Shown here in pieces: positions 17,556 through 25,170 of a stretch of DNA of 37,959 nucleotides. Under the pieces are notes generated by a model, which was not told the DNA's origin, made no database searches, and saw nothing but the letters and a program-made list of their open reading frames with translations. The position numbers and the translations under genes were made by a program. Location: positions 1 to 37,959 of the IMG/VR virus record IMGVR_UViG_3300006104_000817; one strand, given 5' to 3'. The stretch comes from a virus. Within the stretch, counting starts at the first letter, position 1. The number at the start of each line of letters is the position of its first letter.

Positions 17556-17870
17556 ATGAAAATTCTAGCGTTTAAATTAATTACAGGTGAAGAAGTTCTT
17601 GCCGAAATCGAAACTGAATCCGAAACCGAATTTGTTCTTGTTAATCCAGTTGGCATTGCTGTTGTCCGTGATCCAAAAACTGGACAACCACAAGTTGGCT
17701 TCGCACCTTTTCCTATCCATGCTGAACAAAAAAGTGGATCTACCATTGTATTATCTAAGAAAATTGTGGTATATAATTATGTACCAGCCGAAGATTTTAT
17801 CACCAATTACAATTCTATCTTTGGAACAGGATTGATTGTTCCCCCTAAAAAACAAATCATCACCGGTTAA
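17556..17870 (+). CDS. conserved phage protein, possible LSm-like fold
   Basis: A 104-residue protein with FKLITGEEVLAEIE, FVLVNPVGIAVV and a later KKIVVYNYVP segment: five or so strands in the Sm-like order. It resembles the protein at 484 in its opening pattern and may be a distant paralogue. The start follows GAGG, and its stop overlaps the polymerase start by one base, placing it in the gene 43 operon. Function unknown; RNA binding would be inference. Confidence 0.75.
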   Translation: MKILAFKLITGEEVLAEIETESETEFVLVNPVGIAVVRDPKTGQPQVGFAPFPIHAEQKSGSTIVLSKKIVVYNYVPAEDFITNYNSIFGTGLIVPPKKQIITG

Positions 17871-19360
17871 TGGGCTTCTATACATCAGTCCAGTGCCTTG
17901 GTAATAATATTCTTTACCGAGGCGTAATAGATGGCAAGAGGGTTAAGGCAAGAATAAATTATTCACCTTCTCTCTTTGTGCCATCTAAGAATGTAACCAA
18001 CTTTACTTCACTCGATGGTATATACCTAGACCGGAAAGTCTTTGGTGACATCAGTGAAGCCCGTGATTACATCAAGCAATTTAAAGATGTTGATAATTCC
18101 CATAAGATATATGGAAATAACAGGTTTGAATATGCTTATATTGCTGATCAACATCAAGGTATGGTAGAATGGGACCAAGATAAGATTTTGATTGGTGTAA
18201 TTGATATTGAGGTTAGTTCGGAAAATGGATTTCCAAATCCTTATGATGCTAATGAGCCCATCACAGCAATTACTATTACATATCTCAATGGCGATACTTA
18301 TGCTTTTGGATGCGGTGATTACCAAGTTCAGAATAAAGAATTATATGTAAAGTGTAAAGATGAATATACTTTGTGTAAAAAATTCATGGAACTATGGAAA
18401 GCCAAGTGTCCTGATATTCTTACTGGATGGAATACAAAATTCTTTGATGTTCCTTATATCATAAACCGATTTAAAAAAATTCTAGGTGAAGATGAAGCAA
18501 AAAAATTATCTCCTTGGGGTCATATTTCCGAACGCCAAGCATTTGTATCTGGTAGACAGTTACTAGCATATGATATTCTAGGTGTATCATCACTTGATTA
18601 TATTGAACTATACAAATGGTATGCTCCATCAGGTAAATCACAAGAATCATATAAGTTAAATTCTATTGCCAATGTTGAACTCGGTGAAAGTAAATTATCG
18701 TTTGAAGAATATGATACACTGAATGAATTATATCGATTGAACTTTCAAAAATTTTTGGAATATAACATAAAAGATGTGGAACTCATTATAAAATTGGAAG
18801 ATAAGTTGAAGTTATTGGAATTAGCAATTACTTTAGCCTATGATACTAAATCTAATTATGATGATGTATTTGCTCAAACTAGAATGTGGGATGCATTAAC
18901 ATACTCTTATCTGTTAGAACGAAATATCATTGTACCACCTAAGATCACTAAAGATAAAGATGCTTCTTTTGAAGGTGCATATGTTAAAAGTCCTCAAGTA
19001 GGTAAACATGATTGGGTTGCTTCTTTCGATTTGGATTCTCTCTATCCTCATCTCCTGATGCAGTACAATGTAAGTCCAGAAACATTAATCCAACCAGAAA
19101 ATTATACGCAAGAAATGCTTGATATTCTTTCTTCTGGAATTTCTGTTGATAAGATGTTAAAAAAAGAAGTTGATACCTCCAAATTAGTAAATGCAACAAT
19201 CACACCTAACGGCCAATTTTTTAGAACAGATCATCAAGGATTTCTGCCCAAGATGATGGAAGAGATGTACCAAGATCGGAAGAAATTTAAGAATTTAATG
19301 CTTCAAGCAAAACAAGATTATGAAAATGTTTTAACGGAACTTGAAAAAAGAGGATTGTAA
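17870..19360 (+). CDS. 43: DNA polymerase gp43, N-terminal piece (exonuclease and first half of palm)
   Basis: Family B replicative polymerase, first part, 496 aa. Exonuclease motifs: DIE at 112-114, TGWNTKFFD at about 185-193, and YNIKDVE at about 298-304. Polymerase motif A is SFDLDSLYP at about 385-393. It ends at TAA 19358-19360 soon after KKFKNLMLQAKQDYE, in the fingers and before motif B, so it cannot polymerise alone. The remainder is encoded from 19401. Split polymerase genes (43A/43B) are known in some Aeromonas T4-like phages, where a homing endonuclease lies between the halves; here only about 40 nt separates them. Confidence 0.9.
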   Translation: MGFYTSVQCLGNNILYRGVIDGKRVKARINYSPSLFVPSKNVTNFTSLDGIYLDRKVFGDISEARDYIKQFKDVDNSHKIYGNNRFEYAYIADQHQGMVEWDQDKILIGVIDIEVSSENGFPNPYDANEPITAITITYLNGDTYAFGCGDYQVQNKELYVKCKDEYTLCKKFMELWKAKCPDILTGWNTKFFDVPYIINRFKKILGEDEAKKLSPWGHISERQAFVSGRQLLAYDILGVSSLDYIELYKWYAPSGKSQESYKLNSIANVELGESKLSFEEYDTLNELYRLNFQKFLEYNIKDVELIIKLEDKLKLLELAITLAYDTKSNYDDVFAQTRMWDALTYSYLLERNIIVPPKITKDKDASFEGAYVKSPQVGKHDWVASFDLDSLYPHLLMQYNVSPETLIQPENYTQEMLDILSSGISVDKMLKKEVDTSKLVNATITPNGQFFRTDHQGFLPKMMEEMYQDRKKFKNLMLQAKQDYENVLTELEKRGL

Positions 19361-19400
19361 AAGTTACCGATAATAAAATTAAAAAATAAAGGTGAATGTT

Positions 19401-20514
19401 TTGAAATTATTAAAAGATATGTCTGATTCAGAATTGATTGATTATAAACATGAACTGGAAAGGAGAGTTGCGAAATATGATAATTTGCAACTTGCGAAAA
19501 AGGTGTCACTTTAACTCCGCTTACGGCGCACTTGGCTCCCCATATTTTAGATTCTATGATTTAAGAATGGCACTTGCTGTTACATTGTCTGGTCAGTTCT
19601 CTATTCGTTGGATTGAGGCTAAGATTAATGAATACATGAATAAGTTATTAGGAACTGATGCAGATTATGTTATTGCTTCGGACACAGATTCAATTTATTT
19701 AAGACTTGGTGATTTAGTTAAGAAAATTTATAGTGATGATGTTTCTGTTATAATGAATCCTAATAAAATAATCGAATTCATGGACAAAGTGTGTGAAGAT
19801 AAAATTAAACCATATATCGATAAATCATTTCAAGAATTGGCTGACTATGTTCATGCTTATGACCAGAAGATGCGGATGAAACGAGAAGCATTGGCAGACA
19901 AAGGTATCTGGACTGCTAAGAAGCGTTATATTCTTAATGTGTACAACAATGAGGGTATTACATATAACGAACCACACATGAAAGTAATGGGTTTGGAAAT
20001 GATCAAATCTTCTACTCCTCAAGCAATTCGAGTTAAGATGTCGGAAGCTATTAAGTTAATGTTATCTGGAACTGAAGATGATATACATAAGTTTATTGTT
20101 GATTTTAAAGAAGAATTTAGTAAGTTGCCCGCGGAAGAGATTTCTTCACCTCGAGGACTCAACGGATTGAATAAATACTCTGATGCTGCTACCCTATTTA
20201 AGTTGGGAACACCAATTCATGTTAGGGGTGCTATACTTTACAATCAATTTTTAAAAGACAATAAACTCACTAAAAAATATCCACTCATACAAGAAGGCGA
20301 GAAAATCAAGTTTACTTACTTGAAGATGCCCAATCATTTGAAAAATAATGTAATATCATATCCATCTCGTCTACCAAAAGAATTTAAATTACAAGAATAT
20401 ATTGACTATGATATGCAGTTCTCTAAAGCGTTCATAGATCCTATTAAGATAATTTTAGATTGTATGGGATGGAAAATAGAAAAGATGAGTACACTGGATA
20501 CATTTTTTGGATGA
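19401..20514 (+). CDS. 43: DNA polymerase gp43, C-terminal piece with an apparent +1 frameshift
   Basis: Carries motif B (KKVSLNSAYGALGSP), motif C ASDTDSIYL and the thumb with AKKRYILNVYNNEG and MGLEMIKSSTP. The first frame begins at TTG 19401 behind AAGGTGA and reads LLKDMSDSELIDYKHELER and on to KKVSL, then meets TAA 19512. A +1 shift there gives NSAYGALG and an open frame to 20514. The start codon is uncertain (TTG 19401, ATG 19419 or GTG 19392). A start inside the body frame (ATG 19438) would lose the essential Lys of motif B. The two pieces must associate, as in other split family B enzymes. Confidence 0.85.
19500..19515 (+). other. prfB-like +1 frameshift site in gene 43
   Basis: AAGGTG, three bases (TCA), then CTT TAA C. 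The bacterial RF2 gene uses an internal Shine-Dalgarno, three bases, then CTT TGA C to shift +1. The spacing and slip codon are the same; the stop is TAA instead of TGA. Slipping CTT to TTT continues as AAC TCC GCT TAC, the N-S-A-Y of polymerase motif B. Confidence 0.65.
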
Positions 20515-21476: not shown

Positions 21477-22400
21477 ATGAGCATACTTGATAAGATTAAA
21501 AAGAACACAACGATTAAAGATTCTGCTATTCTGTCGCAATCAAAATTCTTTACCGAAAAGGATATGATTCAGACTTCAATTCCTATATTAAATGTGGCAT
21601 TATCTGGTCGATTCGATGGCGGTTTAACACCCGGTTTAACAATGTTTGCAGGTCCGTCAAAACATTTTAAGACAGCATTTTCATTAATGATGGCAAAAGC
21701 ATATTTGGACAAGTATGATGATGCCGCTTTGTTATTCTATGATACTGAATTTGGTTCACCGCAATCATATTTTGATTCATTTGGTATTGATACTGATCGT
21801 GTTCTTCATACACCTATTACCGATATTGAGCAATTGAAGTTTGATATTATGAAACAACTCCAAGATTTGGCTCGCGGAGAACATTTAATTATTATTGTTG
21901 ATTCGATCGGTAATCTGGCATCAAAAAAAGAAGTAGATGATGCACTTGATCAAAAGTCTGTTGGTGATATGTCCAGAGCAAAACAAATCAAATCATTGTT
22001 TAGAATGGTTACTCCACATTTAAATCTCAAAGATATTCCAATGGTTGTAGTAAATCATGTTTACATGGAAATAGGTATGTTTCCTAAAGCCATCGTTGGA
22101 GGCGGTTGTGTTGTTGAGGGCACCAAGATTCAAACACCTGATGGATTGACTGAAATTCAGAACTTCAGGATCGGCGACCAAGTTGTCCATAAATCTGGCC
22201 AAATTGAGGTTAGACATACATGGAATCCAGAAACACTCTACCATGGTTATCCTGAATGTTTTGAGGTTGAATTTGAAGATGGATACAAAGTTGTATGTTC
22301 AGATACACACAAATTTTTTATCGGTGATATATGGATAGAGGCAAAGGATTTAGTTTCTGGTATGGATGCGAAAATCGTATCTGTAGGACCGAGAAATTGA
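21477..22400 (+). CDS. uvsX: UvsX recombinase N-terminal extein fused to split N-intein
   Basis: RecA-like strand-exchange protein, first 210 residues, then an intein N-part. The extein has the P-loop region GLTMFAGPSKHFKTAF, the Walker B strand LIIIVDSIGNL and VVVNHVYMEIGMFPKAIVGGG. Cys211 opens the intein; typical block A (CVVEGTKIQTPDG) and block B (VVCSDTHKFF) follow, ending at TGA after SVGPRN. The C-terminal half is a separate gene from 22543, so active UvsX needs protein trans-splicing. AAGGTAATTT precedes the start. Confidence 0.92.
   Translation: MSILDKIKKNTTIKDSAILSQSKFFTEKDMIQTSIPILNVALSGRFDGGLTPGLTMFAGPSKHFKTAFSLMMAKAYLDKYDDAALLFYDTEFGSPQSYFDSFGIDTDRVLHTPITDIEQLKFDIMKQLQDLARGEHLIIIVDSIGNLASKKEVDDALDQKSVGDMSRAKQIKSLFRMVTPHLNLKDIPMVVVNHVYMEIGMFPKAIVGGGCVVEGTKIQTPDGLTEIQNFRIGDQVVHKSGQIEVRHTWNPETLYHGYPECFEVEFEDGYKVVCSDTHKFFIGDIWIEAKDLVSGMDAKIVSVGPRN
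22107..22397 (+). other. N-half of the UvsX split intein
   Basis: 97 residues from Cys1 with blocks A and B, a canonical split position near where endonuclease domains usually sit. Its last residues, AKIVSVGPRN, contain the same KIVSV that opens the C-half. Confidence 0.9.
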
Positions 22401-22546
22401 ATTTTGATAGTAACTTGTGGAAAAATCCAGCATCAATAAGCCAACGCAGGGATATTTGTGTTCATTGTGGTAAAGAGAGTGTTGCTGGCAATATCAGTCG
22501 TTGGCATAATGATAATTGCAAACAAAATAAAGGTGAAACTAAATGA
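22401..22546 (+). pseudogene. homing-endonuclease zinc-finger relic between the UvsX intein halves
   Basis: An open stretch in another frame, with no start of its own, encodes CVHCGKES..ISRWHNDNC: a C-x2-C-x12-H-x3-C zinc finger very like those in phage HNH and GIY-YIG homing endonucleases (CxHCGK..RWHxDNC). No nuclease catalytic domain remains. It ends overlapping the C-intein start and appears to be the remnant of the endonuclease that once joined or invaded the intein. Confidence 0.65.
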
Positions 22547-22659
22547 AAATAGTTAGTGTAAAAACGGTAGGTAGTAAACCCGTGTATGATATTTCTATTA
22601 AATCTGATGATTATGATGAACAATATTATGTGCTGGAAAATGGAGTAATGAGCCATAAC
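22543..22659 (+). other. C-half of the UvsX split intein
   Basis: 39 residues ending SHN, with Ser as the +1 extein nucleophile. It begins MKIVSV, repeating the KIVSV at the end of the N-half, although the bases differ at synonymous positions. Confidence 0.9.
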
Positions 22660-23067
22660 TCAGGAAGTTATTATTCCGCAGATAATATTTTCATTATTGG
22701 TAGGCAACAAGAAAAAGAGGGAACAGAAATTGTCGGCTATAATTTTATTATTAATATTGAAAAGAGTAGGTATGTTCGTGAGAAATCCAAAATACCTGTT
22801 ACCGTATCTTTTGATGGTGGTATTAGCAGGTGGTCTGGTTTACTTGACCTCGCTCTAGAGTCCGGACATGTTATTAAACCTACTAATGGATGGTACTCAA
22901 AAGTAGATAAAGAAACTGGTGAGATTGAAAATAAGAAATATCGGATTAAAGATACTGATACAAAAGAATTCTGGACTCCAATTCTAAATCAAGAATCTTT
23001 TACCAAGTTCGTTTCAGATAAGTATTCCGTATCAACAGAAAATATTATGGGGGTGCATGATGATTGA
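22543..23067 (+). CDS. uvsX: split C-intein fused to UvsX C-terminal extein
   Basis: Residues 1-39 are a C-intein with block F (KPVYDISIKSDD..YYVLENG) and block G (VMSHN followed by Ser40). The extein, residues 40-174, continues SGSYYSADNIFIIGRQQ and the rest of UvsX to the C-terminus. Ligation would give IVGGG-SGSYYSADN, matching uninterrupted UvsX, and a product of about 345 aa. AAAGGTGA upstream provides a ribosome-binding site. Confidence 0.92.
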   Translation: MKIVSVKTVGSKPVYDISIKSDDYDEQYYVLENGVMSHNSGSYYSADNIFIIGRQQEKEGTEIVGYNFIINIEKSRYVREKSKIPVTVSFDGGISRWSGLLDLALESGHVIKPTNGWYSKVDKETGEIENKKYRIKDTDTKEFWTPILNQESFTKFVSDKYSVSTENIMGVHDD

Positions 23068-23395
23068 GGGCGAGCATTATTGTTACATCTATCCTAAAGA
23101 TAGTAACAAGTCAGTAGATATTAAACTCTTAGAAGGACCATATAAAGATACCACATTCAGATATGGTAAGGTAAAGTTTGAAGAAAAAAATGAACAGTGT
23201 TATTTACTATTCAATTATGATGTGATACAATCCTCTGTAGATAAACCAAAAAAGTTAGAAAAAAACGAAGATTTTAAAAACTATATTGGTAATTTATTAG
23301 TGGAAATTATGAGTTCAAATATAGAACAGGATATTGATGATGAAACTAGAGCAGACCATATTGAAGAATCTGATTTACAACGAGGATTATCTTAG
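23057..23395 (+). CDS. conserved hypothetical protein between uvsX and 41
   Basis: A 112-residue protein with an N-terminal strand-rich part (HYCYIYPKDSNKSVDIKLLEG, FRYGKVKFEE, LLFNYDVIQS) and an acidic helical tail. Tandem ATG codons at 23057 and 23060 lie behind GGGGG. It overlaps both uvsX and gene 41, so it is part of the same translation unit. Genes of unknown function occupy this position in related phages; I know no activity for it. Confidence 0.75.
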   Translation: MMIEGEHYCYIYPKDSNKSVDIKLLEGPYKDTTFRYGKVKFEEKNEQCYLLFNYDVIQSSVDKPKKLEKNEDFKNYIGNLLVEIMSSNIEQDIDDETRADHIEESDLQRGLS

Positions 23396-23993
23396 AAAAG
23401 TATTACCATTTATAAAAACGGATTACTTTACCGAAAGGCATGAGAAAACACTATTTAATGAAATACAATCCTTCACGAATACTTACAATTCAACACCCAC
23501 GATTGAGGCGCTTAGTATTGCCGTCAAAGAAAAAAATAATCTTACAAATGACGAAGTACAGAAATGTGAAACTTATTTACAAGAAATTGAATCTAATAAA
23601 GAAACAAGTTCCGAGATTCAATGGCTTATTGACAAAACCGAAAGATTCTGCCAAGAGAAAGCGATTTATAATGCAGTATTGGGGTCTATTTCAATACTGG
23701 ACGGTAAGGACAAAGACCATGAGAAAGGTGCGATTCCCAAAATATTATCGGACGCTTTATCTGTAAGTTTTGATAATTCTGTGGGACATGATTATCTCCA
23801 GGATTCTGATAGTCGATATGAATTCTATCATCGGAAAGAAGAAAAGATTCCTTTTGATTTGGAATACTTTAATAAGATCACTAAAGGTGGCCTTCCCAAT
23901 AAAACACTTAATATCGCTTTGGCTGGTTGTGTTCATCCAGAAACTAAAGTTAAAATTAGGTATTGGAAACATACTGCCAGTTTGAGGTATTAA
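23337..23993 (+). CDS. 41: gp41 helicase N-terminal extein fused to a 21-residue split N-intein
   Basis: First 197 residues of the DnaB-type replicative helicase, with the N-terminal domain (EQTILKNLIYNEDYLRKVL) and the linker up to GGLPNKTLNIALAG. The intein starts at Cys198 (CVHPETKVKIRYW) and stops after only 21 residues. Splitting so close to block A is the atypical arrangement known from a few metagenomic phage inteins such as AceL-TerL. The break lies inside the Walker A loop, so neither half can bind ATP alone. The start is ATG 23337 or 23340. Confidence 0.9.
   Translation: MMKLEQTILKNLIYNEDYLRKVLPFIKTDYFTERHEKTLFNEIQSFTNTYNSTPTIEALSIAVKEKNNLTNDEVQKCETYLQEIESNKETSSEIQWLIDKTERFCQEKAIYNAVLGSISILDGKDKDHEKGAIPKILSDALSVSFDNSVGHDYLQDSDSRYEFYHRKEEKIPFDLEYFNKITKGGLPNKTLNIALAGCVHPETKVKIRYWKHTASLRY
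23928..23990 (+). other. ultra-short N-half of the gp41 split intein
   Basis: 21 residues covering block A only. GAGG within these codons serves as the ribosome-binding site of the downstream C-half. Confidence 0.88.
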
Positions 23994-23994
23994 A

Positions 23995-24372
23995 ATGAGT
24001 TTATTTGAAGAAAAAGTTGTAAATATTTCTGAAATAGAAGTATTATTAAATAATGGTTATTCTGTTGAAGTTGAATCTCCGGACGGATTTGTTCCCGTAT
24101 CAGCATTTGTTGATAAAGGAGACTGGCCAGAATACGTTCTAAGTACATCTAGCGGAAAAACAGTTAGGTGTAACTCTGACCATTTATTTGAAACCCCTTT
24201 CGGATGGAAAAAATCCGCAGCAATGGTGAATATATCTGACGCAAAGGTGCTGACTGCTGATGGATGGGAAGAGTGTTCCGTTATAAAAACGGAAAATAAA
24301 ATTCCTATTGTTGATATACAGGTAGAGCATAAGAACCATAGATATTATACCGAAGGAGTTTCTTCACATAAT
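23995..24372 (+). other. C-half of the gp41 split intein
   Basis: 126 residues ending SSHN with Thr as the +1 residue. No endonuclease domain is present between its splicing blocks. Confidence 0.88.
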
Positions 24373-25170
24373 ACTGGTGTAGGAAAATCCTTGTTTATGT
24401 GCCATGTTGCTGCTGGTGCTATGGTACAAGGAAGAAATGTTTTATATATAACACTCGAAATGGCAGAAGAAAAGATTGCTGAGAGAATTGATGCAAATCT
24501 ACTTAATGTTACTATAGATGATTTACTGGAACTTCCTAAGGATATGTATGATAAGAAGGTCACGAGGGTTCGTGAAAAGACTACGGGTAAACTTATTATT
24601 AAAGAGTATCCTACGGCATCTGCATCGGCTACTCATTTTAGGACTCTACTTAACGAACTTAACCTTAAGCGTAATTTTATCCCAGATATTATCTTTATTG
24701 ATTATCTTAATATTTGTTGTTCTTCACGGGTTAAAGCTGGTGCTAATGTTAATTCCTATACCTATGTTAAAGCAATTGCTGAAGAACTTAGAGGATTGGC
24801 TGTTGAACATAATGTGCCTATTGTTAGTGCCACTCAAACAACGAGAAGTGGATTTACATCATCGGATCCTGGCCTGGAAGATACGAGTGAATCGTTCGGA
24901 CTTCCCGCCACCGCAGACTTGATGTTTGCTCTAATAAACTCGGAAGAACTTGAAGAACTAGGGCAAATGATGGTAAAACAGTTGAAAAATAGGTATTCTG
25001 ATCCAACACATTTTAAACGATTTACGATTGGTGTGGATAGGTCCAAGATGCGATTATATGATGTAGAGCAGTCTGCTCAAACAGGTATTGCTGATGCTGG
25101 TCATCAAGGCCTTGGTGCTCACAATAAAATTAAACAAGAGAAAAAATCTTTTGATGGTTTTAAAATATGA
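23995..25170 (+). CDS. 41: long split C-intein fused to gp41 helicase C-terminal extein
   Basis: Residues 1-126 are a C-intein with block B (VRCNSDHLFETPFGW), block F (IPIVDIQVEHKNHRYY) and block G (VSSHN followed by Thr127). The extein then reads TGVGKSLFMCHVAAG (rest of Walker A), VLYITLEM, IFIDYLNI (Walker B) and VSATQTTRSGF, the RecA-type motor of gp41. Ligation gives ALAG-TGVGKS and a helicase of about 462 aa, near T4 gp41 (475). ATG 23995 is one base after the N-half stop, so the halves are translationally coupled. Confidence 0.92.
   Translation: MSLFEEKVVNISEIEVLLNNGYSVEVESPDGFVPVSAFVDKGDWPEYVLSTSSGKTVRCNSDHLFETPFGWKKSAAMVNISDAKVLTADGWEECSVIKTENKIPIVDIQVEHKNHRYYTEGVSSHNTGVGKSLFMCHVAAGAMVQGRNVLYITLEMAEEKIAERIDANLLNVTIDDLLELPKDMYDKKVTRVREKTTGKLIIKEYPTASASATHFRTLLNELNLKRNFIPDIIFIDYLNICCSSRVKAGANVNSYTYVKAIAEELRGLAVEHNVPIVSATQTTRSGFTSSDPGLEDTSESFGLPATADLMFALINSEELEELGQMMVKQLKNRYSDPTHFKRFTIGVDRSKMRLYDVEQSAQTGIADAGHQGLGAHNKIKQEKKSFDGFKI

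Follow-up and report, generated by a model that had tools for sequence, protein, structure and literature searches.

The IMG/VR virus record IMGVR_UViG_3300006104_000817 (37,959 nucleotides, the whole of which is called the window here) contains a T4-like replication block, which we analysed. By its open reading frames (ORFs) and their phrog matches, the gene order is gp43, an unassigned gene, uvsX, a gene at the gp40 position, and gp41. Both uvsX and gp41 are in two parts, and each break falls within an intein. The initial annotation had described two different split inteins in these neighboring genes, one canonical with Ser at +1 and one atypical with Thr at +1, and that description holds. 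Judged from sequence, these two self-splicing elements probably join the halves of each protein. All features given below lie on the plus strand, and L-numbers (L001, L003, L005, and so on) are labels of related contigs or loci compared with the window.

The first part of uvsX (21477..22400; phrog_8337, 3.5e-78; RecA Pfam, 4.9e-9) encodes, by extein alignment, UvsX residues 1-210 followed by an N-terminal intein fragment (IntN) of 97 residues at 22107..22397. This IntN begins with Cys1, encoded at 22107, and was recognized by weak matches to Hint_2 and TIGR01445, a match to gp41-1 (6QAZ), and alignment; the ORF stops at 22400. The second part (22543..23067; phrog_18112, 1.4e-64; T4_UVSX_C, 2.5e-20) starts at an ATG at 22543 with a C-terminal intein fragment (IntC) of 39 residues (22543..22659; TIGR01443, 1.1e-3, and sequence), which ends in VMSHN and is followed by the UvsX C-terminal extein. 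The HN/S junction is at 22659/22660, within a motif spanning 22654-22662, and the +1 Ser is encoded at 22660. The UvsX intein has the Cys1, terminal Asn, penultimate His, and Ser+1 of a class 1 intein, a class in which +1 is Ser, Thr, or Cys; nearly all relatives have Thr there. Its split is canonical: 97 plus 39 residues, where such inteins have an IntN of about 100 and an IntC of about 35-50, broken at the usual position of the endonuclease domain. When joined, the UvsX exteins (345 residues) show no gap at the seam against uninterrupted relatives, with 79-82% identity to the nearest six.

In gp41, the first part (23337..23993; phrog_19, 3.2e-45, and extein alignment) encodes helicase residues 1-197 and then an IntN of only 21 residues (CVHPETKVKIRYWKHTASLRY; 23928..23990), which shares a homologous CVHP[ED]TK start with split and contiguous relatives. 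Its first residue, Cys, is encoded at 23928, the stop is at 23993, and the ATG of the IntC follows one base on, at 23995. The second part (23995..25170; phrog_19, 4.7e-81; DnaB_C, 8.1e-17) consists of a 126-residue IntC (23995..24372; supported by VidaL matches and the L005 model) ending in SSHN, and the helicase C-terminal extein. The HN/T junction is at 24372/24373 (motif 24367-24375), and the +1 Thr, at 24373, is the Thr of the Walker A sequence GTGVGKS. Here again are Cys1, a penultimate His, and a terminal Asn, with Thr+1, as in class 1 inteins, and the arrangement of 21 plus 126 residues with a break near the N terminus is that of the atypically split, VidaL-like inteins, whose IntN has 15-37 residues (PMC13014065). 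The joined gp41 exteins (462 residues) likewise show no seam gap against uninterrupted relatives (82-85% identity, nearest six). Block B (T-x-x-H) of the two inteins reads SDTH and NSDH, with the His kept and Ser or Asn in place of the Thr, a replacement also seen in most members of both families. The catalytic ends are intact in both inteins, and each C-terminal part has its own start codon and a Shine-Dalgarno-like leader. A pattern scan of the window found no convincing intein C termini beyond these two.

The two inteins come from different subfamilies, with 28% identity over 90 aligned residues. Library intein profiles (HMM) match both of them weakly but consistently. Because both inteins of the window are split, which rules out modelling them in one piece, two contiguous relatives served as stand-ins: L005 for the gp41 intein and L200 for the UvsX intein. 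The L005 model, whose IntC is 92% identical to that of the window, has a mean predicted local distance difference test score (pLDDT) of 95.2 and a best match in the PDB to VidaL (template modelling [TM] score 0.89); the gp41 intein itself matches VidaL (6VGV) at 1.6e-13 as a single joined sequence and at 1.9e-15 with an IntC profile. By sequence, profile, and model, homology to VidaL exceeds that to other inteins, and on both sequence and predicted fold the gp41 intein groups with VidaL. Both are Cys-dependent and have a very short IntN (16 residues in VidaL [6VGV/6VGW], 21 in the window) with the break after the second strand, the S1 site of PMC13014065; in the L005 model the break falls between strands 7-12 and 15-20. 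An IntC segment (24007-24150) resembles an ankyrin repeat, with DARPin matches down to 7e-9; kinship with ankyrin or DARPin was rejected, as these matches disappear with a family profile.

For the UvsX intein, gp41-1 (6QAZ) is the nearest solved relative, by sequence (7.6e-8; phmmer, joined intein) and by predicted fold, where the L200 model (pLDDT 86.3) has gp41-1 as its best PDB match (TM 0.69) and places the seam between strands 96-99 and 104-116. The two share the canonical split, with an IntN of about 90-100 and an IntC of about 37-39 residues, and Ser+1 (PMC11766414), but are distant in sequence. The gp41 site of a true gp41-1 relative, seen in L127, is empty in the window (TRSGF/TSSD).

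In relatives, the same breaks hold endonuclease genes. The uvsX break contains a sense-strand HNH/NUMOD3 gene in L098, L100, L127, and others, and a gene annotated as GIY-YIG in Shewanella phage Thanatos-1. Thanatos-1 and Escherichia phage BYEP01 (phrog_8337 plus phrog_18112) have uvsX broken at this site too, and an ORF for an endonuclease or NUMOD3 separates the two halves; they differ from the window in that gp41 is annotated as one gene, and no intein is named among the products in their deposited records. The gp41 break of relatives mostly holds an antisense HNH ORF, which in L003 carries an I-TevI-type DNA-binding domain, and HNH-like motifs were found at the gp41 breaks of L091, L094, and many of L133-L207. 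L004 (236-907) has, besides the HNH ORF inside the gene, an antisense GIY-YIG-like ORF just upstream of gp41. This is the arrangement of the fractured genes of Dassa et al. (2009), which, as described in PMC3229294 and PMC13014065, are intein-split genes with an endonuclease between the halves. In the window no homing endonuclease gene lies between the halves of uvsX or of gp41, which sets it apart from those cases; the gp41 relatives differ from them in that their HNH is mostly antisense. None of the papers searched names a split intein together with uvsX.

What remains in the window at each break points to loss. Between the uvsX halves, 22400..22546 encodes what is left of the C-terminal end of a homing endonuclease (phrog_655, 1.4e-4), a tail of about 48 codons reading NFDSNLWKNPAS..CVHCGKES..ISRWHNDNCK, whose stop overlaps the start codon of UvsX-C. 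This tail scores 47 bits against the C termini of the relatives' HNH endonucleases, compared with 21.6 for the best of 100 shuffles. In gp41, the blastn alignment of the window to L003 is interrupted by a gap of 841 bases, with breakpoints 23979/23981 in the window and 728/1570 in L003; at this point L003 has its antisense HNH gene, and the window keeps just a single unaligned base and the leader of the gp41 C-terminal half. Within the apparent deletion scar (23980..23994) lie the stop codon of the IntN and a GAGG that could serve gp41-C as a Shine-Dalgarno-like site. A sequencing artefact as the cause of the gp41 break was rejected, the start and leader of the C-terminal half being homologous to those of the endonuclease-split L003. 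Moreover, homologous breaks at uvsX and gp41 occur in many other contigs, which rules out a base-calling artefact. L001 is 99.99% identical to the window over 8.5 kb and has both breaks identical, although it may come from the window's own sample and is not necessarily independent.

The split state is labile. On a tree of 55 gp41 inteins scored as contiguous, split with a large insert, or split with a small gap, the three states need 11 changes; contiguous and split alone need seven, at least four of them forced by well-supported branches, and the small-gap (bare) splits need four. (A loose pattern had labelled both L195 and L199 contiguous; L199 was scored as split with an insert, and L195 was left out of the tree.) The clade of the window gp41 intein (L001, L003, and L005; support 100/100) includes all three states. 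L005 is contiguous and lacks an S-x-FEEK stretch that is present in the window and L003 and also in L136, a contiguous outgroup, so re-fusion by deletion fits L005 better than an ancestral contiguous form does. For uvsX, L200 (2098-2517) and L204 (710-1175) are 99.9% identical to each other in one aligned block and 99.4% in the other, and L200 lacks 46 bases that in L204 hold the stop codon of the IntN together with the end of an endonuclease tail. The result in L200 is one contiguous UvsX intein that retains the former ribosome-binding site and start codon. A conserved gate is unlikely, because the state is labile and near-identical phages differ by a 46-base re-fusion. These observations argue that the splits are a side effect of invading endonucleases and not a control that has been conserved.

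The inteins are also patchily distributed. Among the 80 nearest gp41 relatives, 75 match from the helicase part onward only and have no intein at this site; uvsX is uninterrupted at 63 of those 75 loci and interrupted at none. The uvsX and gp41 inteins are co-resident in about nine lineages: besides the window, L094/L095/L208, L100, L127, L160, L161/L166, L163, L182, and L200/L204 (L168, where the uvsX intein was flagged by pattern only, was not counted). The association is suggestive, a lead on which we make no claim, since the samples were drawn differently and are not matched. Cyanophage gp41 matches that appeared to extend into the intein were set aside as chance extensions, these genes being annotated as single helicase ORFs of ordinary length, and the uvsX of Caulobacter phage Cr30, a single ORF of 361 codons, was not accepted as an intein carrier.

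Some relatives carry more than two such elements. In the phage of contig 3300025502_000435 (L208 2041-5459, L094 1826-5071, and L095 1550-5319), uvsX is in three pieces, and the middle protein (141 residues) carries an IntC, an 11-residue extein, SMFPTAVISGG, and then an IntN that belongs to a second intein. In gp41 of this phage, the split intein at Walker A is accompanied by the N-terminal half of another at TSE/C, and the breaks contain endonuclease-like ORFs. Such a middle UvsX protein must not self-splice, a strict natural demand for orthogonality. In L127 (5752-7989), gp41 adjoins a split uvsX, and its Walker A motif is interrupted by a VidaL-like intein in contiguous form; downstream of Walker A it has a split gp41-1 relative (2.3e-20) at TRSGF/C.

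The explanation we favor, with a probability of roughly 0.88, is that each gene has been fractured and is held together by its own split intein, with an origin in endonucleases and little or no regulatory role. The halves of uvsX and gp41 would be made from one operon, the cognate IntN and IntC would associate, and class 1 trans-splicing (Cys1, Ser or Thr at +1, terminal Asn) would yield whole UvsX and whole gp41. In ancestors, a homing endonuclease gene in each break would have supplied mobility; the window phage would have lost both endonucleases yet remained split, because a contiguous intein is restored only when a deletion happens to keep the correct reading frame. Such re-fusing deletions have occurred in close relatives. 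Regulation through the splits would be slight or absent, and cross-splicing between the UvsX and gp41 inteins would be limited, because they belong to divergent subfamilies and are split at different sites. Several points weigh against this explanation. Trans-splicing of both pairs is a prediction, and coexpression, assembly order, and rates are assumed. The Ser+1 of the UvsX intein is unusual among its mostly Thr relatives. The direction of change proposed for the gp41 intein is our reading, as change counts cannot separate gain from loss, and the tree was built from short sequences and has many open forks.

Mutual orthogonality of the two inteins is plausible from their sequences. The pairing of gp41-N with UvsX-C is not expected to work, because 21 plus 39 residues would supply 60 of a fold of about 130-150. 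The reverse pairing, UvsX-N with gp41-C, is where some cross-splicing might mainly arise, and the phage would then tolerate a nonfunctional UvsX-gp41 chimera. Cross-reaction for a pairing of this kind has published precedent, both inteins start with Cys, and their shared core is homologous; we nonetheless regard it as unlikely given the low identity, the different split sites, and the charges, since the UvsX IntN (net charge -7) and the first 45 residues of the gp41 IntC (-7) would repel each other, whereas the cognate gp41 IntN is at +4. We give about half as much credence to the idea that one or both inteins are dead and that the halves either function as noncovalent complexes or are inactive. 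In T4-like phages, split gp43 and NrdA do function without inteins (PMC2988022), and naturally split inteins can be poor (PMC11923092); however, the catalytic ends are conserved here, the extein halves are intact and full length, and an unspliced helicase is expected to be dead because the gp41 intein cuts Walker A in two.

Least probable, by a narrow measure, is the proposal of the initial annotation, in which the phage retains two orthogonal split inteins so that replication is delayed or tuned by the need to assemble its recombinase and helicase. In its favor, both interrupted proteins are at the core of replication and recombination, the inteins co-occur in about nine lineages with none of 63 relatives with uninterrupted gp41 having an interrupted uvsX, and conditional splicing is reported for a cellular DnaB helicase intein (PMC6195587). 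Conserved replication genes are the usual targets of homing too, however, and the co-occurrence comes from unmatched samples. The characterized relatives splice fast, gp41-1 having a half-life of about 5 s at 37°C and VidaL one of about 1 min (PMC13014065); most near relatives have neither intein (75 of 80 lack that of gp41); and the state has switched repeatedly, with at least seven changes on the gp41 intein tree and near-identical phages in different states. Regulation by splicing is unlikely on account of these fast half-lives, the patchy distribution, and the labile state, and the gating claim was not borne out. The split arrangement itself is real, but most probably does not serve to time replication.

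Of the neighboring genes, the one at the gp40 position (23057..23395; ORF) is uninterrupted and lies between uvsX and gp41; its assignment follows the uvsX-40-41 order annotated in Thanatos-1, not a match of its own. The window gp43 (17870-20514) is likewise divided in two, although no intein is involved: the stop of 43A is at 19360, and the 43B frame runs from near an ATG at 19419. An additional T near 19507 (CACTTTAACTCC), also present in L001, shifts the 43B frame, either through an error in base calling or as a true frameshift.

More broadly, we consider it about an even bet that two adjacent T4-like replication genes undergo a cycle in which a contiguous intein is invaded by an endonuclease and split, the endonuclease is lost with the split kept, and the intein is re-fused, with up to four co-resident and necessarily orthogonal split inteins and with the window as a case in which both inteins are bare-split. 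If both inteins splice, they would form a natural pair, one canonical and one with a short IntN, that share one cell and would be useful for two-step protein ligation; as 15 split inteins that are mutually orthogonal have already been assembled into a library (PMC7090010), an orthogonal natural pair would have practical value without being the first of its kind. The relatives show split inteins arising, outliving their endonucleases, and reverting to the contiguous form, and because these stages can be seen, the question of function versus inertia in natural splits becomes directly testable.
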